Shown: in pieces, positions 6,362 to 52,235 of the stretch | Layout of the letters: each line of letters starts with the position of its first letter | How positions within the stretch are numbered: the first letter of the stretch is position 1 | From: Arabidopsis thaliana | Taxonomy: Eukaryota; Streptophyta; Magnoliopsida; Brassicales; Brassicaceae | DNA: 64,000 nucleotides | Assembly: GCF_000001735.4 (NCBI RefSeq) | Contig: NC_003071.7 | Coordinates: 12,703,151 to 12,767,150 of the forward strand | Direction of reading: 5' to 3' | Made by a program: the position numbers and the translations under genes | Notes under the pieces: model-generated | The model's input: only the letters and a program-made list of their open reading frames with translations | Database searches by the model: none | Told to the model about the DNA's origin: nothing

Positions 6362-6701
6362 ATTTTATTTTATTTTTAAGTTGTCTGCATGTACAGTAAT
6401 AATAATGCATGTTGTATTTAAACTTAACTATTTTCCCTGTCTCTTACTAATATTTGAATAAAGTAGTCAATAATGATCAATACATACAAAACAAACCTTT
6501 CGATCAACAACTGCGTTGCACAATCTCTGTTTCATTTTTATTTATTTTTGTCTGCATGTACGACTATAATAATACAAGTTGTGTTTAAATTTAACTAATT
6601 CGCTGCCTCTTACTAATAGTTGTATAAATTATCCAACAATCATCAACACATACAAAACAAAACTTTCTCAACAACTCTTGCACAATCTCTGTTTCATTTT
6701 T
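6362..6701. repeat. Tandem duplication (~170 bp x2) in the UGT71C1 promoter
   Basis: Two direct copies (about 6362-6539 and 6540-6701) share, in order, GTCTGCATGTAC, TTAAACTTAACTA or TTAAATTTAACTA, CTCTTACTAAT, ACATACAAAACAAA, and CACAATCTCTGTTTCATTTT. The second copy ends about 50 bases before the UGT71C1 ATG, so promoter and leader elements are present twice. The copies have diverged by small indels and substitutions. Confidence 0.8.
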
Positions 6702-6751
6702 ATTTTTGTCTTCTCCTATTGACTTTTTGAGTTTCTCAGAAAATCCCTAGT

Positions 6752-12559: not shown

Positions 12560-13723
12560 TCAAAACGTAACAGAGCGAAACAGATCAATGGAAGGCGACT
12601 TCACTGATCTAAGCACAATCGCCAATGAATCGACCTTCCCCCAAATCTCACCACTTTGACGATTTTCCAACTCAATCTCTACGAACCAAACATCTTTCAA
12701 ACCACGCTGGCTGGAATTAGAACATCCCAAAATTGCCAACTTCCCACCAAAATTCGCCATTTTACACTGATAATAACAAAACTTAGGCAAAATATATGCC
12801 CCCTTCACACGTCTCCAAATCAACTCATTCGGATCATAAACAACTATTGCATGTCCAAGAACACACATAGGATCAATACAATACAACAAACCCTCAATCA
12901 CACAACACGGGTCGCGCCAAAGAAACATGAACTGAGTTTCAAATCCTAATGACTGCAATGTACCGTGTCTTGGTTCGTAAGCAAAACCAAACAGAGAATC
13001 CAAAATGTAAATCTTGTTTTGCATCACCACTGATGTCACAAACCCTTCTCCTCTCAAACTAGAACCGTTACAGTATCGATGATGAGGCACACTACTCCAA
13101 ATCCGATTCTCTATATCGAACACTTCGATCCAATGATCATTTCGCTTCACGCAACCTCCGATCACATAAATCCTTCCGTCAATTACTCCTGCAGCTGCGT
13201 AGACGCGAGTTCTCTGCATTCTCGGGAGCGAGCAAGACGTATGAAATCTCAAATCGATGATAGACACATTCGATGTGGGTTGATGTAGGCGGTTGTGTCC
13301 ACCGATTACATACATATGGTATCCGATTGTGACCACCGCAGATCCATGATTCAGAGGAGGAAGTGATTTGATTTCTCTCAAGTGTAAAGAGATGTTTCTT
13401 GGAATGTTACAATTGAGAATGTACAAGTTTGTGGTATTATAAGGAGAGAATCCGATCAAGGCGTAAAGAACTGAGTCGGTGAGGTTGAGGATGAAGCGGC
13501 TTTTGTAGAGTTCCGAAGAAGAGATAACGCGACGAAAGGTTTTGGAGAGGAGAGATAGCGTCGGGTAATGACATCTCCGGATTAGTAAGACGGTACTTTC
13601 GATGAGTTCGTCTGGGATTCCTTGAGGAATCGGAGGAAGATTCTCTTCTTCTTCTTCTTGCGGATTCTTGGTTGGATCGCCGCCATTGGAGCCGTCGTCG
13701 GAAGTTTCAGAGATGAAAACCAT
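12560..13723 (-). CDS. F-box/Kelch-repeat protein (KFB array copy 1)
   Basis: Single-exon coding region of 387 residues, probably AT2G29770. An acidic N-terminal segment (about residues 8-33) precedes an F-box at about 34-78 (IPDELIESTVLLIRRCHYP, LSLLSKTFRRVISSSEL). Kelch motifs follow at about 127-173 (GSAVVTIGYHMYVIGG) and 174-220 (GVIDGRIYVIGG), with weaker blades up to [13 protein letters not shown]-box/Kelch proteins act as substrate receptors of SCF ubiquitin ligases; the partner is unknown. The start ATG is shared with its paralogues and sits 7 nt from a TGACGTCA element. Downstream of the stop, AG|GTATGT at 12538 and TTGCAG at 12437 (minus strand) outline a 102-nt 3'-UTR intron, about 21 nt after the stop. 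Confidence 0.9.
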   Translation of the reverse strand: MVFISETSDDGSNGGDPTKNPQEEEEENLPPIPQGIPDELIESTVLLIRRCHYPTLSLLSKTFRRVISSSELYKSRFILNLTDSVLYALIGFSPYNTTNLYILNCNIPRNISLHLREIKSLPPLNHGSAVVTIGYHMYVIGGHNRLHQPTSNVSIIDLRFHTSCSLPRMQRTRVYAAAGVIDGRIYVIGGCVKRNDHWIEVFDIENRIWSSVPHHRYCNGSSLRGEGFVTSVVMQNKIYILDSLFGFAYEPRHGTLQSLGFETQFMFLWRDPCCVIEGLLYCIDPMCVLGHAIVVYDPNELIWRRVKGAYILPKFCYYQCKMANFGGKLAILGCSNSSQRGLKDVWFVEIELENRQSGEIWGKVDSLAIVLRSVKSPSIDLFRSVTF

Positions 13724-13807
13724 CGCCGTGTGACGTCAGCAGCAACGAATTAACTGTAACTGAAAGTGAGCCTGAATTTGATATTTGAAAAAATGCTCGT
13801 ATTTATT
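13724..13807 (-). promoter_or_regulatory. KFB copy 1 leader with palindromic TGACGTCA
   Basis: TGACGTCA at 13731-13738 is a perfect bZIP-type C-box/CRE palindrome close to the ATG, followed upstream by the family-conserved GTTAATTCGTTGCTGC leader (minus strand). A TATTTATTA stretch at 13800-13808 is the weakened equivalent of the TATAAATA box in the paralogues. Confidence 0.5.
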
Positions 13808-13887
13808 ATAATAACGAAGACACTAACGACGTCGTATAGACGATTGTAAAATGGGGCCTAATACGTTGTATAAGCGAGTGTAAAATG

Positions 13888-14135
13888 GGGCCTTAGAGCA
13901 AATCCCTAAGCAAAGTTTCTAACCTATAATAATAATAATAAAATAATAAATAATATTATTTAATTAAGATAGTTTCTAAAGAAATGTGAGAAAATTTCTA
14001 ATTCAAGAGATTTTGAAGACTCTTCTAACTATTTTAAGAAACTTTTTAAATTAAATAATATTATTTCTTATTTTATTATTACTTTAATAGATTAGAAATT
14101 ATGGTTAGAAACCACCATTGGACATGCTCTAAGGC
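13888..14135. mobile_element. Fold-back MITE upstream of KFB copy 1
   Basis: The ends mirror each other: GGGCCTTAGAGCA on the left and TGCTCTAAGGCCC on the right. Internally, TAATAATATTATTTAATT-like sequence on the left pairs with AAATTAAATAATATTATT on the right, so the ~245-bp unit can fold into a long hairpin. No open frame is present. It is a non-autonomous DNA element; the superfamily is not certain from the termini alone. Confidence 0.6.
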
Positions 14136-14299
14136 CCACAATATTATATAAGTTTTACTTGTTACAATTAAGAAGCTATCTTATTCAGATTTACTTGTTA
14201 CATTGTGGTGCCTGACCAGACCATACTCTGTGATGCAGGTGTTTCCTTTGTGATCGAGAACTTCTCCTTTGGAGAAAAAGCATTAGTGTGGCAATTCTT

Positions 14300-14440
14300 T
14301 ACTAGAATAAAGTCAGTCAATTTTGTATGTGTTCCACCTTTTGTGTATTATAATCATATGAAGATCAATCGGTTTAGTGATTTGGACCTCCTCTCTACCG
14401 TTAAGTGCACAAGTTTTTTTAATTACTATCAATAAGTAAA
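14300..14440 (+). repeat. Copy of the PPR gene 3' flank
   Basis: GTCAGTCAATTTTGTATG, GTTCCACCTTTTGTGTATTA, TCATATGAAGATCAATCGG, and TTTAGTGATTTGGACC followed by a CTCTCTACC.TTAAGTGCAC block follow 11965-12105 in the same order. The parent sequence starts at the stop codon of the PPR gene. This shows that F-box/Kelch duplication units carried PPR-derived DNA. Confidence 0.8.
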
Positions 14441-14981
14441 TCTTCACACATCTCTGAACCAAGATTTCATACTAAACTACCGGTTAACTAAGTCACTTTG
14501 TTTTGGTTCATCTCCAATCCAAACCAAGTACTATTGATATTGCTCATATAGTAGAAGCAGATTAGGTTTCGTTAAAATCGGTTTGTGATTACTTGTTGAA
14601 GAATTATACATCTCACAACAGAAAGAACCAGAAGATAGCTAAACCAAAGATGCATTTCAACAAGTCTCGTAAGAATATTAGTACAAAAGAGTGGCCAACT
14701 CTACACAAACACAAGGCCAGTTCTGTTAAGAGTATTCACATTTTTGCACAAAGGTTAAGAAAGACGAGTTACTCTATAAAGGTGTCAGATATAACAGCTT
14801 CTGAACACACTTTTTCTTCTTCATATTTGCTCTGAAATCAATAAGCTGCTCAAAACAGTAGATGTAATAAAAGATCCTTGACCTGCAAGTTAAAGTAAGC
14901 CTCATTAAGACTCGAGTCTAAAGAAACTGTCTCAACAGAGCATCAAAAAGTAATATACCTGAAACACCATCCCACAGATCA

Positions 14982-16178
14982 TCAAAATGTAACAGAGCGA
15001 CAAAGATCAATGTAAGGCGAGTACACGGATCTAAGCACAGGCACCATTGAATCGATCATCCCCAAAATCGGACCTGTTTCACCTTTTATCAACGCCATCT
15101 CTATGCACCAAGTATCTGTAACCGGGTTGTTATAAGTAGCACCAAAAACCATCAACTTCCCACCAAAATTCGCCATTTTACACTCAAAGTAATCGAGATC
15201 AGGAAAAGCACGTATACCCGTACCCATCATAGGAGTCCAAACCATGACATTTGGATCATACACATTTATCGGAGAACCTTGAAGACAGTATGGATCAAAA
15301 CTATACAACAAATCCTCAATCACACAACACGGCTTGTACCAGTAAGACTTCAACGTAGTTCCAAGCTCCCCTGACTCCCATGTACCATCAATGGGATCAT
15401 AAACCAAACCACACGTAGCATCCAAAATGTAAATCTTGTTTTGCATCACCACAGATGTCACAAACCCTCCTCCTGGCAAACTAGACATGAAATGGGATCG
15501 ATCAGGGACAGTACTCCAAATTCCAGTCACTACATCGAACACTTCGATCCAATCGTCGTACCGCTTCTCGCAACCTCCGATGACATAAATCTTTCCGTTG
15601 ATTACTTCTGCGACTGCACGGTAACGAGCCCTATGCATAGTTGGGAGATAGTTACACGTATGGACTCTACAGTCGATGACAAACACAGTCTTTACAGGGT
15701 TATTTGGCCCTATCAGTCCACCGATCACATACATCTTGTAGCCGATTGTGACCACAGCAGAGCCAGGATTCATAGGAGGAAGTGAACCGATAGCGCTCAA
15801 TCGTAATGGGATGTTTCTTGTAATGTTGTGGTTGAGAATGAACCAGTTCGGGAAACTATGAGGAGGGAATCCGATCAAAGCGTAAAGAACCGGTTCGGTT
15901 AGGTTTAGGCTCGAGCGTGTTTGGTGGAGTTCCGGCGAAGAGATTACGATACGAAAGGCTTTAGAGAGGAGAGATAGCGACGGGTAATGACATCTCTTGA
16001 TGAGTGCGACGGTTCTTCTGATGAGTGCTTGTGGGATTTGTCGAGGAATCGGAGGATGATTCTCTACTTCTTCTTCTTGATGATCGTCTTCTTTAGGGTT
16101 CTTGTGGAGTTCTTCGGGTTTCTTGTTTGGTACGCCACCGTGAGAGCCGTCGTCGGAAGTTTCAGAGATTATAGCCAT
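14982..16178 (-). CDS. F-box/Kelch-repeat protein (KFB array copy 2)
   Basis: Single-exon coding region of 398 residues, probably AT2G29780. The acidic N-terminal segment is longer than in copy 1 (it adds EELHKNPKEDDHQEEEVEN). The F-box is IPQALIRRTVALIKRCHYP with LSLLSKAFRIVISSPEL. Kelch motifs include GSAVVTIGYKMYVIGG and [16 protein letters not shown], then [12 protein letters not shown] near the end. It ends in SVTF like copy 1. A conserved 3'-UTR intron is visible at 14883-14958. Predicted role: SCF substrate receptor; target unknown. Same orientation as the rest of the array. Confidence 0.9.
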   Translation of the reverse strand: MAIISETSDDGSHGGVPNKKPEELHKNPKEDDHQEEEVENHPPIPRQIPQALIRRTVALIKRCHYPSLSLLSKAFRIVISSPELHQTRSSLNLTEPVLYALIGFPPHSFPNWFILNHNITRNIPLRLSAIGSLPPMNPGSAVVTIGYKMYVIGGLIGPNNPVKTVFVIDCRVHTCNYLPTMHRARYRAVAEVINGKIYVIGGCEKRYDDWIEVFDVVTGIWSTVPDRSHFMSSLPGGGFVTSVVMQNKIYILDATCGLVYDPIDGTWESGELGTTLKSYWYKPCCVIEDLLYSFDPYCLQGSPINVYDPNVMVWTPMMGTGIRAFPDLDYFECKMANFGGKLMVFGATYNNPVTDTWCIEMALIKGETGPILGMIDSMVPVLRSVYSPYIDLCRSVTF

Positions 16179-16265
16179 CGCCGTGTGACGTCAGCAGCAA
16201 CGAATTAACGGAAAGTGAGAGACTAATCAGAGTTTTGAGAAGAGCTGTTACGTTGTGTATTTATA
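16179..16265 (-). promoter_or_regulatory. KFB copy 2 core promoter and leader
   Basis: TGACGTCA at 16186-16193 lies 7 nt upstream of the ATG. TATAAATA (minus strand) at 16258-16265 lies about 80 nt upstream of the ATG, a spacing kept in several paralogues. Confidence 0.6.
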
Positions 16266-17640
16266 ATGAAACCATAATGAGTAAATAAATACTCTGCTGC
16301 TTCGTTTAAATGTATTAAATATGTTTTCTTCTTCTCAAATCTTGCATATATTATCATTTATTTATTTTTTCTTTCACTTACACTTTTATTATAAAAAGGC
16401 ACTAATACTAACGGAAACATTATATATTATCTAGTTTAATTTCTCCAAAAAATAATGGGTATTAATAGAAATTCAGTCTAAGAACTGCATGTGTTTTTTA
16501 TTTCTTTTTCTTCGTAAACTATATCACCAAACTTTTCTTTTTTTTTTCTTTCTTAGAATAACACTGGTTTCTGACCTTAAATAAAAGTTAACCAATGGAC
16601 GAAGAATTTACAAAAATTGAGTCAAATGTCTCTCAACGTGACACACAAGTCTCAGCTTTGTTCTCTTTACTTTGAAAACCTAATTTGTCTTTCAAAGGGC
16701 GTACACAAATGTTGAATTCAATAGCTTTTTTCGCCGTAGGTACTGAAAAAAAAAAAACTATATTGAGATAGCATTTTCCCGATTGTAGTTTATGAACAAA
16801 ACTGTAACAGTAAATTGTATGGTCTAGTGAATTGACTAAAGGTTTGCCTTAGTTATAGAGTTTGATTTTTAGAAAAAAATGTTTTTTGCTGATTAATAAA
16901 AGCAAATTCATTGTAATTATTTAACGTGATATATGTATCCCATATTCCCATATGTCAAAAATTTAGTTGCCAATCATAAATACGGTGTATGTAAAGTGTT
17001 TATTATAGACTTTTGTAGTACGGTTAGTACTAGACGTTTTGGAATTATATGTTGCTAATTAAATATTTTATTTATTTTTGATTTTTGTAAAATGAAAAAT
17101 TTGTTATATATAATTCTTTGATTAATAATTTTTGACAAGATCATGTACAGTTTTTAAGTTTACGATATTAATACGTTTTTTTTTTTAGAATTTGATCTAT
17201 AATATAATACATGATAATATTTTATTTTTTATTCACAATTTTTGGTATTAAAATTATATAATTTAAAATTTTAGTGTTTTTAGATTTAACCTGTAGAATG
17301 TGGTTGAAGACCCAAAAACACATGTCAAAGTCCCAAGGCAATCTTTTATCTTTTCTTAATTACAACGAGATATTAGCGAAAGCAACTGTTAAAAAATATA
17401 TGTTCAGTTGTTATCCTAAATATTAAAATTTACTTTTAAATATTACTATAATACAACTATACAAGTATGATCTATCATTAGTTGGTACAAAATCATCATT
17501 AACTAATTAATTTATAAATTCTTATTACACAACATATTATTCAAAATAAATTAATATTTTTTAAGAAAACTTAATAGAAAAATAAAATTACTTAAACTTT
17601 CAATGGCACTAAACAAAATTACGATAAGCATAATTATATT
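16266..17640. other. KFB 5' flank copy followed by AT-rich intergenic DNA
   Basis: About 16560-16700 (ACCAATGGACGAAG, AATTGAGTCAAATGTC, ACACACAAGTCTC) is a copy of the distal upstream flank also seen near 21.95, 24.5, 26.65 and 37.3 kb. From about 16740 to 17640 the sequence is extremely AT-rich, with no open frame, repeat or element I can name. Confidence 0.5.
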
Positions 17641-17700
17641 GTATATATATGTTTACTTTAGGTAAACTTGTAGCTGTATTGTTTGTATAAGGTCGTTAAT

Positions 17701-19282
17701 TTAATGAACAAGCCGGTTGCAGACAGCCACACACTTATATAAACTACGATAACACCTGCTACGATCATTGAAACAGCAATAACACACTTCTTCTCTGTGT
17801 TTTGGACATTTGCCAAGATGGCACACTGATGAACCTAACTTGTTCGCGTCAAAACCTTGCCCGTTTGCATCTATAAGAAAAAGATTAGAAGTTCAAAAAA
17901 AAAAAAAAAAAAAATTAAAAAAAAAATTAAAAAGAAGAATTTTATTTATAACAATACGATTACAATGGTGATGATTGTAAACGATGAATAAGCGATTCCT
18001 TATTTATATATATACGCATAATTTCAAAAACATATATTTTTGTAGAGGAACAAGAGAAATTACGATGATGCAAATTAAAGGATCATAACAAAATGTGATG
18101 ATGATATTCTTTTTATATTCGTATTTTTTTTTCTTTTTGTTAATTCTTTGTTTGCTATATGATGGTTGAAATATTCCGAACCTGATTTGGTCGCGTCAAC
18201 AGCTTGTGCGTTTGCAGCTATAAGAAAAAAAATTAGAATTAAGAAAATGAAGAGTTAAAAAAGCGAATAATTTTATTTCTAACAACATATTTTACAATGG
18301 TGATGAATGTAAACGAAGAAAAAGCCTTTAATTTCATAAATTCTTGTAGAGGAACGAGAAAATTACGATGATGCAAATTATAACAAAATCTGATGATGAC
18401 GTTGTTGTGATATTCTTTCTTTTTTAAAACACAAATATTTGTTTGGTTATTTGGTAGTTGAAATCCGAATTACCTGCCTTGTTGGCGTCAAAACTGTGTG
18501 TCTTGTCTCCAGCTATTAAAAAAATATAAGTTAATATTTATTTTTTACCAAAAAAATATAAAAATAAATATTTATAAGTATATGATTATAATGGTGATGA
18601 CTGATTGTAAACAATGAAAAGGCAATTATTTGTATATATGCATAAATTTATGAACATACATCCATGAGGAACGAGAGAAACTACGATCAAGCAAAGGATA
18701 ACAAAATGTGATGATGACATTGTTGTTTTTTTGGTTTTTTTTTTGTTTATGTTTGATGGTTGAAATCCGAACCTGATTTGCTTGCGTCAACAGCTTGTGC
18801 GTTTGGAGCTATAAGAAAAAAAAAATAGTTAAAAGAAAATGAATTTTTATTAATAACAATATGATTTCTTAATGGTTATGACTATAATTGTAAAAGATGA
18901 AAACGATTATATTTCATATAAATACATTCTTGTAGAGGAATGAGAAAATCAGTATGATGCAAATGATACCAAAATTTGACGATGACATTGTTTGTGATAT
19001 TCGGTTTTTTGTTTTTTCGTTTATTTGTTTGTTATTAGATAGAGTTAAAATCCACACCTGGCTTGTTCGCGTTATGATGTTGTGTGTTTCCAGCTATAAG
19101 GAAAAAAAATAGAAGTTAATAATTGATCTGGAGAATTATATATAACAATATGGTGATGACTGATTGTAAACAATGACAAAGCGATTATGTATATATATGC
19201 ATAAACTCATAGACGTACATCCATGTAGAGGAACCAGAGAAATTACGATGATGAAAAGGATAGCAAAATGTGATGGTGACAT
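17701..19282 (-). CDS. Secreted eight-cysteine peptide of the MEG/ESF1-like family with tandem micro-exons
   Basis: Six exons read by hand: 19219-19282, 19058-19093, 18773-18808, 18474-18512, 18182-18217, 17701-17870 (total 381 nt, 126 residues). All internal exons are 36 or 39 nt, phase 1 at both ends, with TATAG acceptors and CAG|GT donors or close variants. Exon 1 encodes a signal peptide (MSPSHFAILFIIVISLVPLH). Each internal exon adds one module (SGNTQHHNANKP, APNAQAVDASKS, AGDKTHSFDANKA, AANAQAVDATKS), and the last exon opens with a fifth (DANGQGFDANKL). The C-terminal domain has eight cysteines spaced C-x4-C-x7-C-x-CC-x6-C-x6-C-x3-C, as in maternally expressed/EMBRYO SURROUNDING FACTOR peptides. 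Gene order suggests AT2G29790. Exon choice is inferred; shorter isoforms using an internal signal exon are possible. Confidence 0.72.
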
Positions 19283-19402
19283 TCTTCTAAAAATCAGAAA
19301 CTTTTTTTTTTTTTTTTGGTTTTTGGTTTTCTGTTTTTTTTTTTTTTTTGGGTTATTTGATGGTTGAAAACCTGAACTCCTTGCATACAGTTTGTTTTTA
19401 TA
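17836..19402 (-). repeat. ~290-bp tandem units, each with a micro-exon and signal-exon copy
   Basis: Micro-exon copies start about 285-350 bp apart, at 17836, 18182, 18474, 18773 and 19058, with a degenerate copy at 19373-19402. Between them, five copies of a signal-peptide-exon sequence recur near 18048, 18355, 18660, 18930 and 19219, recognisable by GTAGAGGAAC, then AGAGAAATTACGATGATG and AAAATGTGATGATGA on the plus strand. Only the 19219-19282 and 18660-18720 copies keep both ATG and a donor in the right phase. Confidence 0.85.
18660..18720 (-). other. Intact alternative signal-peptide exon inside the peptide gene
   Basis: Reads MSSSHFVILCLIVVSLVPHG plus one base and then a GTATGT donor, the same phase as exon 1. 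Splicing to 18474-18512 or 18182-18217 would give a secreted peptide with fewer modules. Whether it has its own promoter cannot be seen. Confidence 0.55.
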
Positions 19403-20207
19403 GATAAGTTGTTTGTAATTATTAGTGCATGTCTCTTATGGTGATCCGTAAAAAACTGTTAAATTAATTGTTTTTACTAGTCTTAGTTCTTCCGTATTCC
19501 TTAGTAATTTAGTGATATTGTTGTTGTTTAACATGACAAATAAATACTTTGCAAAAATTGTTGGAAACTGTTACAAATAAATACTTTGCAAAAAATGAGT
19601 GAGTCTAGAGAAAATGTTACAAATTAAATGACATATATCTTCTCTATGCATATTTAGATATATAGCTTCACTTTGATATCGTACGTTGACTGATTGTTGC
19701 CACTCATAAAGTCAAAATCACCGGTCAACTAAATCACATTTTTTTTTGCTTCATCTCTAAACCAAATTAAATTTCATATTTGCTCATATGGTAGAAGCAG
19801 ATTAGGTTTCGTTAAATCTGATTGTATATGATCATTACTTACAGAAGAATTAAATATCTAAAAGGAACTTGAGATCATGTTAGTGCAACTGCACAAAAAC
19901 CCCATAAGATGCATTTCAACAAGTTTCCTTCAAAGTTTTTGCATAAAGGCAGCTAAAAGAGTACTAAAGGTTAAGAAGCATCGGACGAGTTACGCTTCAA
20001 GGTGTAAGATGTAACAGCTTCTGAGTTACTTTTCTCTGATACCAACTAGCTGCTCAAATAGTATAGATGTAATAAAAGATCCTTCACCTGCAAGTTTATG
20101 AAAACATAAATAAGACTTGAGGCTCAAGAAACCTTCTGAAAGATCATAATTCGTCATCAATCCATACTCATCAAAGATTAACATACCTTGCAACTGCAAA
20201 CGAGTCA

Positions 20208-21452
20208 TCAAATCGTAACAGTTCGAGAAAGCTCAAAGAAAGGCGACATAGGGAATGCATTCACAAGCGAGAGTGATTCGACCTTCCCCCAAATTTGACC
20301 ATCTTCATGTTTCTCCAAAGCCACCTCAACGCACCAAACGTCTTTTCTGTAATAATCAAAACTACTCCGATAACATCCCAAAATCACCAACTTCCCACCA
20401 AAATTCGCCATTTTAGACTCGAAATAAACGAGATTAGGCCAAAACTCTAAACCCATGACAGGTCTCCAAGCTATTCCCCTTGGATCATAAACGACAATCG
20501 AAGCTCCAAAAATCTCCCGAGGAACAATCGCGTACAACAAATCATCAACCACACAAGACGACAAGTGCCAATAACTCCTCTGTGCACTTTCAGGTCCCCA
20601 AGTCTCCCATCTACGTCGCCTTGGATCGTACGCAAAACAATAGTCACCATCCATAATGTAAATCTTATTATCCAAAACCACATGTACAATAAACTTTCCA
20701 CTAGAACTAGCAAAGGAAGAGAATGGACCAGGCACAAGTTCCCATCTCTCAGTCTCTACATCGAACACTTCGACCCAATCATCAAATCGTCTCTGGCGTC
20801 CGGCGACTACGTAAATCCTTCCGTCGATCACTCCAGCGACTGCGGAGCAACGATCCCTCTTCATATTCCGGAGATGTCGACACGTATTGAATCTACAATC
20901 TATCTCAAGCACAGTACTTATGGTTTTATTGTAGCGGAAGTTATAACCACCCACTACATAAATCTTGTGACCTATTGTGACGGCAGTGCATCCAAGAAAC
21001 ATGGGAGGAAGAGATGTTACACAGTTCAATTTTAAAGAGGTATTGTTTCTCCGTTGGAGAATGAACCATCTTCCTTCTTCAAATGTTGGGTACTTGAACG
21101 TGATCAAGGTATAAAGAACCGGTTCCGTTGAGCCGATGAGCGAGCGAACTTGGAAGAGATCCTCTGAAGAGATTACTTGACGAAAGGCGTTAGAGAGGAG
21201 AGATAGCTTCGGGTAATGACATCTCCGGAGGGGTGCGATAGTGTTTTCGATTAGTACTGGTGGGATTTTTCGAGGAATCGGAGGAACATTCTCTACTTCT
21301 TCGTCTTGATGATCGTCTTCTTCATCTGCTTCATTCGGGTTCTCGTTTTGATTCTCTTTTTCTTCTTGTGGGTTCTTGTGGGGTTCTTCGGGTTTCTGGT
21401 TTGGAACGCCGCCGTTAGAGCCGTCGTCGGAAGTTTCAGAGATACTAGCCAT
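20208..21452 (-). CDS. F-box/Kelch-repeat protein (KFB array copy 3)
   Basis: Single-exon coding region of 414 residues, probably AT2G29800. The N-terminal acidic, Asn/Glu-rich region is the longest in the array (it includes NQNENPNEADEEDDHQDEEV). The F-box reads IPPVLIENTIAPLRRCHYP with LSLLSNAFRQVISSEDL. Kelch motifs include GCTAVTIGHKIYVVGG and GVIDGRIYVVAGRQRR, and a later [12 protein letters not shown]. The second Kelch motif has VAG in place of the usual IGG. A 3'-UTR intron is outlined at 20088-20186, about 21 nt after the stop. Predicted SCF receptor; target unknown. Confidence 0.9.
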   Translation of the reverse strand: MASISETSDDGSNGGVPNQKPEEPHKNPQEEKENQNENPNEADEEDDHQDEEVENVPPIPRKIPPVLIENTIAPLRRCHYPKLSLLSNAFRQVISSEDLFQVRSLIGSTEPVLYTLITFKYPTFEEGRWFILQRRNNTSLKLNCVTSLPPMFLGCTAVTIGHKIYVVGGYNFRYNKTISTVLEIDCRFNTCRHLRNMKRDRCSAVAGVIDGRIYVVAGRQRRFDDWVEVFDVETERWELVPGPFSSFASSSGKFIVHVVLDNKIYIMDGDYCFAYDPRRRRWETWGPESAQRSYWHLSSCVVDDLLYAIVPREIFGASIVVYDPRGIAWRPVMGLEFWPNLVYFESKMANFGGKLVILGCYRSSFDYYRKDVWCVEVALEKHEDGQIWGKVESLSLVNAFPMSPFFELSRTVTI

Positions 21453-21552
21453 CGCCGTGTGACGTCAGCAGCAACGAATTAACGGAAAGCGAGACTAATA
21501 AATTTGGTTTTTGAAAGAAGCTGTTACGTTGTATGTTTTTTGTGTATTTATA
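21453..21552 (-). promoter_or_regulatory. KFB copy 3 core promoter and leader
   Basis: TGACGTCA at 21460-21467, 7 nt from the ATG, and TATAAATA (minus strand) at 21545-21552, about 93 nt upstream of the ATG. Confidence 0.6.
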
Positions 21553-21899
21553 AGGAACCATATTGAGTAAATAAATACTCTCTTAAGTAACCCACGGATT
21601 TTCAGAAAAAATTGTTTAAAAAAAATGTTTAATCAGAAATAAAAATCCAAAATGATAATCTGTAATATTTTTGTTCTTCTTAAATATCTTTTTAATTCAT
21701 TAATGTATTAAATATTTAAATATCATTATCATTTAATGTTTTTTTCTTTACTTACTCATATTTTCAATATTATCTGAAATATATAAAGTTTCTTCGGAAA
21801 AAAACAAAAGAACAATTGGTAAAAAAAATTCACTTTGACGTAAAAAAAGAAATCCACTTTGAAATTTGGATGTTTTTTTCATTTTGGGGAAACTATATT

Positions 21900-22148
21900 A
21901 GCAAGTTTATTATTTTAAACAGTATTTTTTTTGTTGTAAAGCTTTTTATACGTTAATAACAATTCACCATTGGAAAAATCTTTTAAAATTGATTTAAATG
22001 TCTATTAACGTGATTACTTGACTCACAAGTCTCTGTGTTTTCTCTACTTAGAAATTCCTCGTTTGTAATTCAAGTGCTTTGTTCTCGTCGTCTTGACTGG
22101 GACACTGATGAAAAGGATACTGAGAGAGCCATTTTCTGGATATATCAA
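21900..22148. repeat. KFB distal 5' flank repeat
   Basis: Matches 26620-26848 in order (AACAATTCACCATTGGA, TTAACGTGATTACTTGACTC, then a nearly identical 88-bp stretch at 22061-22148 versus 26761-26848). More diverged copies lie near 16.6, 24.5 and 37.3 kb. Being far upstream of the genes, it marks the right-hand part of the duplication unit. Confidence 0.8.
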
Positions 22149-22156
22149 GAATCTAA

Positions 22157-22419
22157 GAGCATCTCTATCGGCAAAAGTGGTAGAGAGTATCTTAAAAAAT
22201 AAATAAATTAATATTTTAATCAAATTAATATATTTTAATTAGTTTAAAGTAAATGAACCATTAGTTTAATGACAACTCTCAATAAATGCTGAGAATCGTC
22301 TCTCCTGCCAGAAACGTTTCTCCACTTTTCTCTCCTTCTTCCTTCTCTCCTACTTTTTCTCTTTTTAATTATTATTTAATTGATGAGTATCTCAATCAGA
22401 TATTCCGATGGAGATGGTC
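22157..22419. mobile_element. PIF/Harbinger-like MITE, 263 bp, with TAA target duplication
   Basis: Left end GAGCATCTCTATCGG and right end CCGATGGAGATGGTC are inverted repeats with few mismatches, flanked on both sides by TAA (22154-22156 and 22420-22422). The surrounding sequence is a copy of the PPR coding region, whose parent reads AAGAATCTAAGGGTGTGTGG at about 11810-11829. The empty site can therefore be inferred, and the TAA is confirmed as a target-site duplication. No coding capacity. Confidence 0.85.
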
Positions 22420-22480
22420 TAAGTGTGTGTATAGATTGTCATTCAGTTGGCAAGCTAAAACCTCAGCTGTATGATAATGT
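22420..22480 (+). pseudogene. Fragment of the PPR DYW domain
   Basis: GTGTGTATAGATTGTCATTC, AGTTGGCAAGCTAAAACCTC and AGCTGTATGATA follow the parent at about 11823-11875, which encodes the [17 protein letters not shown] segment. The copy begins before the MITE (AAGAATCTAAG, 22147-22157), continues after it, then jumps to the KFB 3' flank near 22480. It is a non-functional host gene fragment. Confidence 0.85.
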
Positions 22481-22951
22481 TAACAAAATCACTCTGTTTT
22501 GCTTAATCTCTAAACCAAAATTTCATATTGCTCATATAGTAAAACCAGATCAAACAGGTTTTCGTCAAATCTGATTGTGATTACTTACAGAAGAATGTTA
22601 GTGAAACTACACAAAAAATCAGAAGATAGCTAAGTAAAGCTGCATTTCAACAAGTTTCATAAGAATTTTTGTAGAAAGGCTAAAAACAATAATGGTCTAT
22701 TGTGCACAAAAGTACTCTATAAGGAGGTGTCAGATATAAAAGCTTCTGAACCACTTTTGCTCTCATATCAACAAAGCTGCTAAAACAATAGATGTAATAA
22801 AAGATCTTCCACCTGCAAGTTCATGAAACCCTAACTAAGACTTGAGACTCAAGAAAATGTCTCAACATCATTATTATCATTATGAATAGGTCAAACTCGT
22901 CATAGAAACATACCTGGAAGTAATGCACGAAACCATCCCACGATCGAATCA

Positions 22952-24103
22952 TCAAACCGTAACAGATCGACTAAGCGCAATCAAAGGCCACTTGCTGGAT
23001 GACAGCACAACCGATCTTGATTCGACATGACCCCAAATATCACCATCTTCACGTTTTTCCAGTGCAATCTCTATGCACCAAATGTCTTTTTCCAAGTAAC
23101 TATCCTTACGATCCCGGCTCTGATTACCGCCCAAAATCACCAACTTACCACCAAAATTCGCCATTCTAGACTCATAGTAAACGAGATTAGGCAAATCAGA
23201 ACTTTGTACACCCTTCACAGGTCTCCAAACCATACCCTTTGGATCATACACGACAATCGGATATCCATGAGAACACGTAGAATCAACGGTACACAACATA
23301 TCATTAACCACACAACACGACTCGTACCTCCTCTGTTGACTTCTACGTCCCCATGCCTCAAATCTACGTTTTCTTGGTTCGTAAGTCAAACAAAACAGAG
23401 GATCCAAAATGTAAATCTTCTGTTCCATTACCGCATATTGACTAAACTCTACACTCTCACTTGCAACGTTAGGGTATGGACCAGGCACAGTTTCCCAACT
23501 CTCATTCTCTACATCGAACACTTCAACCCAATCATTATATCGTTTCTTGCAACCTCCGATTACGTAAATCTTTCCATCAATCACTCCCGCGGCTGCGCCA
23601 CCGCGATCCCTTTGCATACTAGGGAGCTCACGATACGTATGGAATCTACAATCGATGACAATCATAGTCGATACAGGTTGATTCAAGCCGATGAATCCAC
23701 CGAGTACATACATCTTGTAATCGATTGTGACAACAGCAGATCCAGGAAGCATTGAAGGAAGTGAAGTGATTTGTTTGAACTGTAATGAGATTCGATGGAG
23801 AATGTACCAGCTTGGGAGATCAAAAGGTGGGAATCCGATTGAGGTATAAAGAACCGGTTCGGTGAAGCCTAGGCGCGAGCGTGTTTGGAAGAGTTCCGGT
23901 GAAGAGATTAGGTCACGATAGGCTTTGGAGATGAGAGATAGCTTCGGGTAGTGATATCTCCGGACGAGTGCGACGATGATTACGATGAGTTCTTCTGGAA
24001 GTTCTTTAGGAATCGGAGGAATATTCTCTTCTTCTTCTTGAGGTTTCTTGTTTGCAGCGCCGCCATTAGAGCCCTCGTCGGAAGTTTCAGAGATTACAGC
24101 CAT
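22952..24103 (-). CDS. F-box/Kelch-repeat protein (KFB array copy 4)
   Basis: Single-exon coding region of 383 residues, probably AT2G29810. Short acidic N-terminus; F-box [19 protein letters not shown] with [17 protein letters not shown]; Kelch motifs [16 protein letters not shown] and [16 protein letters not shown], and later [16 protein letters not shown]. The third Kelch-like segment contains [19 protein letters not shown]. Ends in SVTV. A 3'-UTR intron is outlined at 22813-22913. Predicted SCF receptor. The TATA-containing upstream part of the promoter seen in the other copies is missing here. Confidence 0.9.
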
Positions 24104-29236: not shown

Positions 29237-30051
29237 TCATTGATCTTCACATGGCAACTTGAAACGACATAGAGGACAATCGTGATTGGTCTCAAACCAC
29301 TTCAGGGCACACTCATCGTCAAACTCGTGTCCACATGGTAGAGCCACAATGCTTCTTCCGTCGTCAAACTCTTCTAGACAAATACTACACATTTCATTCT
29401 CACCTACGACATCACTAGCCTTCTTGTATGTTTTCCTATTTAAAGACTCAACAGCGAGCTTGCTCGCAGGTTTTAACCTGGCAGTATTGGTCTCATTGAA
29501 TGAAGCTTGCAAAACTTGTTCAAACTGAGGATGAAACGCTTCCTCAGTTTGATGATCGAAGTCGTGCTCATAGCGTGGCAACCAGTGGAATAGAACTTCT
29601 TGAGGCTGATATGGAGATGATTGTCCGTAAAAAACGTTAGGATCCTGCTCATAGCCTAAGTATGGCAATCCGTGAAATGGAACAAATCCTCCCAGCTGAG
29701 ACGAAGATGCTTCTCCATAAGAAAAGTTAACATCGTGCTCATACCTTAAGTGTGGAAGCTCGTAGAATGGAACACCTCGGCCAGGCTGAGATGAAGATGA
29801 TTCTCCATAGAAAAAGTTGGCATCGTTCTCAACCTCCAAACCTAGATCCTCATTGAGCGAGACTTGATCAACTTCTTCAGCGTGATCAGATGGAGCTGCT
29901 TCTTCAGTTTGTTCTGGAGGAATAACGGTGGTAAGAGTCATCGACACTCTTAAAGCACAAGCTGGAGTATAATCATCAGAGGAAGTTAATTCATCGACGA
30001 ATCGATACAACTCTAGTAACACATGGAAAACATCAGTGGGAGCGATTTTTC
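29237..30051 (-). CDS. RING-finger protein (putative E3 ubiquitin ligase), 5' end uncertain
   Basis: Probably AT2G29840. The C-terminus carries a RING: CSICLEEFDDGRSIVALPCG, then HEFDDECALKWF and CPLC. The metal-ligand order is C, C, C, H, then Asp where RING-H2 has His, then C, C, C, so it fits the RING-D class of plant RING proteins. RING proteins recruit E2 enzymes for ubiquitin transfer. The middle holds degenerate repeats of about 30 residues (for example NFFYGESSSSQ, NFSYGEASSSQ and NVFYGQSSPYQ). The frame is open upstream of 30022 to 30118 without any ATG; the first in-frame ATG is at 29941 (MTLTTVIPP). GKIAPTDVFHVLLELYRFVD looks coding, so an upstream exon joined at an acceptor near 30052 is the better model. 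Confidence 0.7.
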
Positions 30052-31259: not shown

Positions 31260-33457
31260 ATAAAGAACATAATCGAGACATGTATCCGCAAGTACATGAG
31301 TCTGGAAGAAACAGTGGATTATCTGCAGGAAAATCACAAGATTAGTCACCATCTCACCAAACCAAGTATAAGTTATATAATCTCTTTTTCTGTTTTGAAT
31401 TGATTCTGTGCTTATTTATAAAAAATTCAGTTTTGTTTCTTTTATTAGTATGAGAGCAGCTTCAGAAAGAGAATGCAGATTTTTTCAACAAGTACCACTT
31501 AAAACGTGAATTAGCGCGTCAAATAAAATTGTTTAACAGTTTTCTTGGAAAGCAAGTTTCTCTGATGCTCGAGAATGGAGATCTTGATATTAGTACTGCA
31601 ACATGTACGTATAACACAAGGACTAAAATCTCTAAATAAAGTTCATTAGTTTTTTGAAAATTGGGTTTGTTCTGCTTTGTTTGATAACTCTTTGCATTAT
31701 GCAGCTGATAGGTCAGAGTTGAGCACTTTAAACATGCAATGTCGGAATTGGATGATACAAATGGTCTAACAGGTAAAGTCGAAAACTCGATTTCTTGCAC
31801 TTTTGACATGTAAGAATTCCCTTATGTTTCTCTCTTTTGTAGTAAACCAGTCGCAGAATCCTAATGATCAGCAATATCAATTTCATTCTTGTCGGTGGTC
31901 AACTACAACTAATCATATACCTTGTAAGAAAAGACTCAAACCTTTCTCTCCTTCTGAATATTGAGTTTGTAGGTCATGATTGCAGCTGGGCAAAAACTCG
32001 ATTATATCTTTCACTTTTGATTTCTAAAGCTTCCTTTGGTTTCTCTGTCTTGTAGTAAACCAGTTGCCGATTCCTAATGGTCAGCAAAATCATCTATGGT
32101 CTACACCAAATAATCATGCTTGTAAAGAAGAGACTCAATCTTTCTCTCTTAATCTATCATTTGTTTAACACTTCTAGTACTTGACAATTTTTTTATGAAT
32201 AACTCAACTTTCTTTCTCCATAGGTACCAATCTTGGAGCTTCTACCATTCCACCAGCAGCTAACGATCAATGGTTTCCTTATAAGGATCCTGCGTGTAAA
32301 GAAAACACTCAACCTTTCTCTCTTACTCTCTCATATGTTTATCACTTGTACTTCAGCACTATTATGAATGACTCAACTTTATTTCTCCATAGGTTCCAGT
32401 CTTGGAGCTCCTACCGTTCCACCAGAAGCTTATGGTCAATTGTTGCCATATACTGATCCTGCGTGTAAAGAAAACACTCAACCTTTATCGCTCATAGTTT
32501 AAACCCTTTTCACATCAAAGATTTTGAATGAATCACTCTTTCTTTTTTGCTCCATAGATTACTATCCAGTACTATATTCAACCGCTGCACCAGCAGCTAC
32601 TATTCAATGGCCGACATCTACTGATTTTGCTTGTAAATAATATACTTTATTAATCTTCCTTTCTCATTATATTGTTTTGTAACTCTTCTACTTAAGCATT
32701 TGTATGATTCATTCTCCTTTCTCTTTCCCTTAGATACTGGAGGTCCAACTCTTTCAAAAGCACCTACTGCGGCATTTGATCATTTTAGAGATGGTTTCGG
32801 AGAAGATATTGACAATAGCAGCCCAAATTTCCAGATCCTTTAGCAGCCGCACTACAAACGCTACCCGATGACATGCTACAAGAGCTATATCAACAATGCC
32901 AACGGCAATCGCAGCTTCAACAGAACTTCTCACTAGAAGAGCAGCAAAGACTTCAAAGTAAAGTAAACAACAACGGGCTTCAAGGAGTAGTAAGGCCACC
33001 CGAAAAGCCGCCACAAGACCTATATGGACAATGTCAACCGCAATCGCAGCTGCAACAGAACCTCTCAGTAGAAGAGCTGCAAAGACTTGAAGTTAAATAT
33101 CGAGCAAACAGCAACGAGCTGCAAGGAGTAATACCGCAGCAACAGCATCATCAGGAACAAGAAGCAATGCAGACACAAGGAGATCCACTGAATCGAATAC
33201 CTGTTCAATCTGAAGCTTCAAACCATTCAGATAGTGGTAAGTAGCAACACCCCTTTCCAACACTACAAATTTCTTTTGTCATCTCTTATCTTACTTGTTC
33301 TCTCTTTTCACTTATGTGTTAGCACACTAACAATGGCTCAAAACCAGCATGGTCTCCAAAAGGCAACATGAATGACGTGGTCTCTGAAAGAGAGGAGCAA
33401 TATCAGAGAGAGGAGCAAATCATTAACAGAGTTTTTATATATCGTAGACAGTTTTAA
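31260..33457 (+). CDS. Unrecognised multi-exon gene with tandem symmetric exons and a Gln-rich end; possibly decayed
   Basis: I do not recognise the family. An exon near 31260-31364 reads IETCIRKYMSLEETVDYLQE and onward; one near 31452-31603 reads EQLQKENADFFNKYHLKREL and continues FLGKQVSLMLENGDLDIS; a third near 31714 reads VRVEHFKHAMSELDD. The charged heptad-like pattern suggests a coiled coil, as in the K-like region of MADS proteins, but I see no MADS domain. Five similar exons of 66-81 nt follow, all phase 1 (see the repeat entry), then an exon at 32735 whose frame closes at FQIL. A Gln-rich segment (about 32840-33243, reading PDDMLQELYQQ and on) continues in a shifted frame, and a last stretch ends YRRQF at 33457. 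The frame conflict near 32830 suggests either an unrecognised splice or decay. Roughly the AT2G29850 position. Confidence 0.4.
31843..32640 (+). repeat. Five tandem phase-1 exons with similar introns
   Basis: Exons begin after AG at about 31843, 32056, 32223, 32394 and 32558, with lengths 81, 66, 72, 72 and 75 nt. Each ends in a T before GTAA(A/G). Translations include NQLPIPNGQQNHLWSTP, NLGASTIPPAANDQWF, SSLGAPTVPPEAYGQLL and YYPVLYSTAAPAATIQW. Introns share ACTCAACCTTTCTCTCTTA and a TTTCTCCATAG acceptor. Because all are phase 1 at both ends, any number can be joined without breaking frame. Confidence 0.75.
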
Positions 33458-51257: not shown

Positions 51258-51889
51258 TTTGTCCCAGTTGATTCTTCTCTACAGACTTTGAACCATACTT
51301 TTCTCTATAGAAAGGAGACCTTGCAGTCTTCATTGCTCCTGTTATGGCAAAGCCAAAAAACAAAAACAAAAGTGCGAATCAACAACACAGTAATTATCTA
51401 CAAATTCTCTGTTTTTGAAGCAACGACTTAATCCTGTTTCTTTTTCCCAGGCCATTACATCGTCTGTGATAACAGTTCCTTCCATTGGTTTCTTCTTGTG
51501 AGAAAATTAAACCAGCAAATAGGACTTTATATAGTTACCGGGGTGAGAGATGATATAACTTTTATGTCAAAAAAATGAACCTTCTTGGTGTTATCTTATC
51601 TACGTATGTATGATGAGACTCTTATGTCTGATTTGTTGTGTAGGAAATCACATGGCAACAACTTGATTATCTTCGGACAACAAGTGATGCAGATATATGT
51701 CTAAAATCGTACATGGTTTGCACCTTTTGTGTTGTGAGTAATATTTTTTATATATCATCCACATATAAATTGGGCAATTTCCATTATTTGTGCATAACAA
51801 TATAATTTATCAAATAGAAATTTATCTTATTTCATTGTTTCTCGAATCTTGATACTATTTATCTATAGTACGGTAAGACTCTAATGTTA

Positions 51890-52215
51890 TTACTGCAGCA
51901 CTCGGACCCAGATTCTGATCTTGACTTTGAGCTCCTGCTACTTCACCAAGATCATGATCTTGAACTGCTGCTCACAGATTCTGATCTTGACCTTGAGCTG
52001 CTGCTACTTCACCAAGATCATGATCTTGAACTGCTGCTCACGGATTCTGATTTTGACCTTGAGCTGCTGCCACTTCACCAAGATCATGACCTTGAACTGC
52101 TGCTCCCGGATTCTGAGTTTGACTTTGAACTGCTGCCACTTCACCAAAGTTATGACTTTGAGCTGCTGCTTCCAGATTCTGAGTTTGACCTTGATCTGCT
52201 GTGCTTGGTGATCTT
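51890..52215 (+). repeat. 66-bp (2 x 33-bp) coding-like minisatellite
   Basis: About 4.8 units of 66 bp. Each unit holds two related 33-bp halves: CTTGAACTGCTGCTC.. and CTTGAGCTGCTGC.ACTTCA. In frame from 51884 it translates as alternating 11-residue modules LELLLTDSDLD and LELLLLHQDHD with variants (LELLLPDSEFD, FELLPLHQSYD); the second plus-strand frame is also open. Units have diverged mostly without breaking either frame. Whether it is expressed (for example as AT2G29920) cannot be told from sequence. Confidence 0.85.
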
Positions 52216-52235
52216 TTTGGTAATAAATTTTTAAT

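Follow-up and report, generated by a model that had tools for sequence, protein, structure and literature searches.

The gene at positions 17701-19282 on the minus strand of the window (the whole stretch of 64,000 nucleotides of Arabidopsis thaliana DNA that was analysed) is, judging by position and kinship, most likely AtPCP-Bβ (At2g29790), a pollen-coat ligand gene. Its 5' region would have been tandemly duplicated to five units, the resulting mini-exons being spliced into the messenger as a tolerated, flexible tail; a probability of about 0.6 is given to this reading as a whole. On the sequence, the product is best read as a normal ligand of the PCP-B type whose N-terminal tail is unusually extended.

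Gene anatomy and the repeat unit

A frame of 126 amino acids is read on the minus strand from an ATG at 19282 to a stop codon ending at 17701, so that the span named in the preliminary description is exactly that of the coding coordinates. The layout of five modules described there was also recovered: four separate phase-1 exons and a fifth module at the start of the last exon join a signal peptide to an eight-cysteine domain. The statement that each module is flanked by AG and GT holds for AG, which precedes all five, but GT is a possible donor for the first four only, the AG|GT of the fifth being coding.

19219..19282, minus strand: signal-peptide exon 1, coding part, 64 nt, MSPSHFAILFIIVISLVPLHG, ending in phase 1 before GTACGT
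19058..19093, minus strand: module 1 mini-exon, 36 nt, SGNTQHHNANKP
18773..18808, minus strand: module 2 mini-exon, 36 nt, APNAQAVDASKS
18474..18512, minus strand: module 3 mini-exon, 39 nt, with one extra codon, AGDKTHSFDANKA
18182..18217, minus strand: module 4 mini-exon, 36 nt, AANAQAVDATKS
17701..17870, minus strand: last exon, with module 5 (17870-17835, 36 nt, DANGQGFDANKL) followed by the eight-cysteine domain and the stop codon

The predicted introns measure 125, 249, 260, 256 and 311 nt, and the GC content is 0.42-0.53 in the five module-bearing exons versus 0.22-0.26 in the introns. As all junctions are in phase 1, skipping of the mini-exons is frame-neutral, as had been proposed; a product lacking all four is predicted to have 77 instead of 126 amino acids. 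The N-terminal tail before the first cysteine has 65 residues, compared with 15-17 in PCP-Bα, γ, and δ. It contains no dibasic site, and the modules of this secreted-type precursor have a loose common pattern around DA.K.

The module is only the 3' end of each unit of about 300 bp, a point that the preliminary description had not recognised. The repeat unit, 285-347 bp long, opens with a 5' leader and a copied signal-peptide exon; next come an intron that ends in a T-rich tract plus AG, and then the initial 36-39 nt of exon 2. The five units can be aligned along their length, although leader and intron contain numerous gaps; each includes the source intron and exon, and the cysteine domain is present only after unit 5.

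19058..19371, minus strand: unit 1, 314 bp (leader, signal-peptide exon, intron, module 1)
18773..19057, minus strand: unit 2, 285 bp
18474..18772, minus strand: unit 3, 299 bp
18182..18473, minus strand: unit 4, 292 bp
17835..18181, minus strand: unit 5, 347 bp, ending within the last exon

Chance repetition is ruled out by a 249-base stretch of unit 5 (17908-18156) that matches unit 1 at 72% (E 1.2e-25; query 18100-19400), together with three repeat families of five copies each across the array. In the unit tree, units 1 and 3 and units 2 and 4 are grouped, with FastTree supports of 0.943 and 0.862, and IQ-TREE values of 93 (1+3 split from the rest) and 72 (2+4). Alignment columns that divide the units two against three number 4 for 1+3 and 3 for 2+4, the other splits having 5 columns. 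This grouping suggests, as a hint, a two-unit duplication in the history of the array. The 40 nt directly 5' of unit 1 (19372-19411) bear a weak likeness to module 2, with 112 out of 5000 shuffles attaining the best local score. This signal is too weak for a firm reading; it may reflect gene conversion or a sixth, degraded unit.

Since the repeat unit includes the first exon, each new intron holds a stranded copy of it, and only one of the four such copies, that of unit 3, is intact.

18926..18988, minus strand: signal-peptide exon copy of unit 2, 63 nt, ATG and GT kept, phase broken
18660..18720, minus strand: signal-peptide exon copy of unit 3, MSSSHFVILCLIVVSLVPHG, start, frame, phase and donor intact; possible alternative first exon
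18340..18402, minus strand: signal-peptide exon relic of unit 4, start changed to ACG, donor GT lost
18036..18107, minus strand: signal-peptide exon relic of unit 5, start changed to ATA, 8-nt insertion, stop codons, donor GT lost

Could transcription also begin at unit 3? An alternative start there would give a product of 101 amino acids with modules 3-5, and its first exon is the sole one among the four downstream copies in which start, frame, phase and donor all persist. Nevertheless, such a start is considered very unlikely in view of the promoter elements, which lie 5' of unit 1.

19437..19455, minus strand: promoter block common to the α, γ, and δ paralogues, present once in the window at <=3 mismatches
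19397..19402, minus strand: TATA box, 31 nt upstream of unit 1, aligned with a TATA in all three paralogues

In a search of the window at <=3 mismatches, the paralogue-type block was found in front of unit 1 only. Lying 31 nt downstream of the TATA box, the start of unit 1 would be near the expected transcription start. As the units begin 3' of the TATA box, the duplicated segment seems to extend from roughly where transcription begins as far as the AG|GT that has remained coding in the last copy (17835/17834), with the promoter excluded. Neither a TATA-like word nor the shared block occurs in the 421 nt upstream of the first exon of unit 3. The notion that unit 1 alone possesses a TATA-like word was refuted, TATA[AT]A[AT] having 12 matches between 19460 and 17701, of which the promoter TATA at 19402 is one; such words inside the AT-rich array leave room for internal starts. 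The signal peptide of unit 3 agrees with those of α, δ, and γ at 12, 12, and 12 of 20 columns, and that of exon 1 at 12, 13, and 13, which refutes the idea that the former is nearer to the paralogues. Moreover, units 1 and 3 group together, so that the unit 3 copy may simply be later and not yet decayed.

Identity of the gene and its cysteine domain

In its genome, the window occupies C2:12703151-12767150. When the genome was searched with the cysteine exon, four places were found besides its own: one on C5, one on C1, and a pair on C2 separated by 8.7 kb. PCP-Bγ and PCP-Bδ (At2g16535 and At2g16505) are reported to lie c. 9 kb apart, with PCP-Bα being At5g61605 (PMC5215366). The C5 match and the C2 pair thus fit α and γ/δ, which leaves PCP-Bβ for the gene studied here. 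The C1 match (C1:19999668, locus L017) was rejected as a family member, having no frame with the cysteine pattern, and another locus (L019) was also rejected by its cysteine pattern. Ten open reading frames of the window were scanned, three of which encode UDP-glycosyltransferases and four Kelch proteins; these are presumably the neighbours to be expected in the At2g29790 stretch of chromosome 2.

The paralogues α, δ, and γ read as two-exon genes of 82, 77, and 76 amino acids with a phase-1 intron at the equivalent place, their splice sites having been chosen by hand. The length of 76 agrees with a synthetic γ peptide reported as residues 23-76, which begins at the exon 2 spacer (PMC9908550). 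The hydrophobic N-terminal leader of the present gene, a putative signal peptide, is aligned with those of α, γ, and δ. No comparable array was found in the 1.6-1.7-kb stretches of these three genes, α and γ being without repeats and δ having two repeats 5' of the gene. Elsewhere in the same genome, locus L018 harbors five repeat families, two of them between two frames with the cysteine pattern, which by their position we take to belong to the ESF1 cluster.

All eight cysteine columns (8/8), in the spacing of the family, are invariant in six sequences, namely that of the studied gene and those of five relatives encoded in this genome. A profile of the six members matches 2RU1, which we take to be ESF1.3, at 3.8e-9 and MEG14 (7DAB) at 0.011; a search with the single sequence gave no match to 2RU1 and reached 7DAB only at 0.46. 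With the Pfam model Meg (PF24153), scores of 17.5 and 15.4 bits were obtained, below the curated cut-off of 27, and the model was also silent on the genome and the controls in six frames, which makes this a test of little power. The best single-sequence fold of the domain with one module shows three strands and a helix at a mean pLDDT of 75.0 (43.1-75.0 in the five models). A search among solved structures with this single-sequence model gave no match at E <=0.001, 7DAB appearing at E 5.4. Within the folded spacer module, confidence falls below 50 in residues 1-5 and 9-11, which is consistent with disorder. What the preliminary description had said of the family stands insofar as the domain is of a MEG/ESF1-like, eight-cysteine, secreted type, but a seed ESF1 gives way to PCP-Bβ, which is more likely by position and kinship.

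PCP-Bβ is reported to be expressed in pollen, and the hydration of pcp-bβ pollen to be reduced (PMC5215366). On these published data and the intact frame, the reading as a pseudogene is rejected.

Other duplications are found in the window. Four minus-strand Kelch frames lie in 12560-24103, two on each side of the PCP-Bβ gene, a layout that suggests repeated local duplication around it. Separate tandem duplications occur at 6381-6705 (period 166 bp), just before a glycosyltransferase frame, and at 32113-32486 (169 bp). A 90-bp repeat in 2.5 copies (29615-29835) is located within the N-terminal part of a RING-finger frame (29237-30022, minus strand). On the plus strand, a frame of 116 amino acids (51884-52234), for which no Pfam match was obtained at E 0.001, contains 4.4 copies of a 66-bp unit (51911-52201, 91% match) that can also be read as a 33-bp unit.

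Use of the modules and role of the tail

After removal of the extra codon of module 3 for the unit comparison and for pN/pS, gapless columns gave mean pairwise differences of 0.272 (modules), 0.273 (introns), 0.242 (leaders), and 0.162 (signal-peptide copies). In gapped pairwise alignments, modules had seemed to evolve faster than introns, but this difference is gone in the multiple alignment. Variable columns make up 18/36 in modules and 81/174 in the rest of the unit (Fisher p 0.72), and the pooled pN and pS of modules are 0.301 and 0.221 (10 non-independent pairs); neither purifying nor strong positive selection on the module letters is supported by these values. As modules differ to the same extent as introns, amino-acid constraint on them is not detected.

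This lack of constraint would be expected if the modules were dead, exon 1 being spliced straight to the last exon to give a normal PCP-B of 77 amino acids, with the array as intronic debris. Such a length also lies within the range of the four A. thaliana family members detected in the pollen coat (74-82 aa; PMC9856046) and beside those of α, δ, and γ. However, dead modules are judged unlikely, since all four mini-exons have retained their frame, codons free of stops, and their AG and GT. No frameshift or stop is present in any of the five modules (0/5), and all required AG and GT are retained. When neutral decay was simulated along the unit tree, modules 1-4 were all intact in 0.0005-0.0735 of the runs, and in less than 0.05 in 9 of 10 settings, with root, ancestor and indel model being our own choices. 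The splice sites of the modules are moreover among the best at the locus. With a simple consensus score, the donors of modules 3 and 1 are the top two of 83 GT sites, and the acceptors of modules 2, 1, 4, and 5 are the top four of 59 AG sites, module 3 ranking 11th; the acceptor score is ad hoc. The donors of modules 2 and 4, like the three signal-peptide exon ends that bear GT, fit 6 of 9 consensus positions. Direct splicing would finally require an intron of about 1.35 kb, to be compared with the 125-311 nt of those predicted. It is hence probable, from these features of the gene, that the modules are included in the functional mRNA, with their letters of little importance; once they are included, any break of frame would destroy the cysteine domain.

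Inclusion need not be uniform. Programmed or noisy skipping would generate a series of isoforms that carry between one and five modules, in 16 in-frame combinations. Every junction being in phase 1, any subset stays in frame; donor scores are unequal among the modules, and the micro-exon genes of schistosomes are reported to act in this manner (PMC4350168). Small symmetric exons by themselves are, however, no proof of regulated skipping, and this alternative is regarded as quite improbable. Still more doubtful is an extension of it in which graded ligands, with tails of 1-5 fast-changing modules and possibly the unit 3 start as well, would tune the contact with stigma receptors through the length or sequence of the tail. 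If this were true, the number of modules could differ among accessions or between species, and pollen preference could in part depend on it.

The preliminary description had left open whether the modules are linkers, processed peptides or binding repeats. A role as linker or tail is best supported. Release of the modules as small peptides, or their action as receptor-binding repeats, might be read from the loose DA.K pattern in a secreted-type precursor but is extremely unlikely, given the dibasic-free 65-residue tail, letters that drift at the intron rate, and the low confidence of the spacer in the model.

PCP-Bb/r peptides are reported as competitors of RALF23/33 at the receptor complex ANJ-FER (PMC11435202). 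In the pollen-coat proteome of A. thaliana, α, γ, δ, and a new ε were detected and β was not; sites in γ and δ are listed as positively selected in a table of the same study (PMC9856046). As these sites seem to include spacer positions, an adaptive role of the tail is possible. The published pollen-hydration phenotype makes the choice between a neutral and a useful added tail directly testable, and both the gene models and the synthetic peptides of PCP-Bβ hinge on which of the modules are truly included.

Proposed origin and comparison with known systems

Since α, γ, and δ read as plain two-exon genes, the array points to a tandem duplication of the gene start at PCP-Bβ, and the single parental intron of the three paralogues fits a gain of introns there. 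One end of the duplication would lie close to the site of transcription initiation and the other just past the AG|GT of exon 2, the event being repeated until five units were present. The AG|GT of exon 2 would thereby be set upstream of a duplicate of intron 1, so that at each internal junction a coding AG|GT would turn into a donor, with the copied intron supplying the next acceptor. Each duplication would add one in-frame mini-exon and one intron with a stranded first exon, for a total of four new introns. The added mini-exons preserve the frame, given a spacer length divisible by three and a parental intron in phase 1. Transcription would start 5' of unit 1, and most mRNAs would contain the mini-exons. 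After cleavage of the signal peptide near the exon 1 boundary, the mature ligand would begin with a flexible tail, about 65 residues in length, and continue into the PCP-B cysteine domain. This tail would be mainly a tolerated spacer of which only the reading frame must persist. A short tandem duplication over the start of a gene can thus yield several in-frame mini-exons and introns with fossil first exons.

The exon structure of PCP-Bβ may already be annotated in TAIR or UniProt. The words "exon" and "intron" are absent from the main text of PMC5215366. In the literature on tandem exon duplication in plants, on micro-exons of secreted cysteine-rich proteins and on internal duplication in pollen-coat genes, the structure did not appear among the matches listed (titles and beginnings of abstracts).

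Compared with the rest of the AtPCP-B family, PCP-Bβ has the same putative signal-peptide exon, phase-1 intron, spacer and eight cysteines. Unlike α, γ, and δ, which have a single spacer of 15-17 residues, it alone of the four harbors five 5' units and four extra mini-exons, its modules being copies of this N-terminal spacer. Outside the family, the closest parallels are duplications that involve introns. In a potato gene, a cryptic exonic donor is reported to have been activated, the remaining splice signals coming from the parental intron (PMC4974935). The duplication across an intron-exon boundary and the activated exonic donor are common to both cases, but the copied segment in PCP-Bβ also includes the leader and the whole first exon, and four new introns result. 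TOUCH3 of Arabidopsis, as described in the same report (PMC4974935), likewise carries a tandem internal duplication with a whole intron. There, an existing intron with exon on both sides was multiplied, whereas PCP-Bβ gains a donor and stranded first exons. The micro-exon genes of Schistosoma resemble it in architecture, with a signal peptide, runs of tiny symmetric exons and a fast-evolving mature part (PMC4350168). They are unrelated, and variable splicing is reported for them, whereas PCP-Bβ is known here from its genomic sequence.
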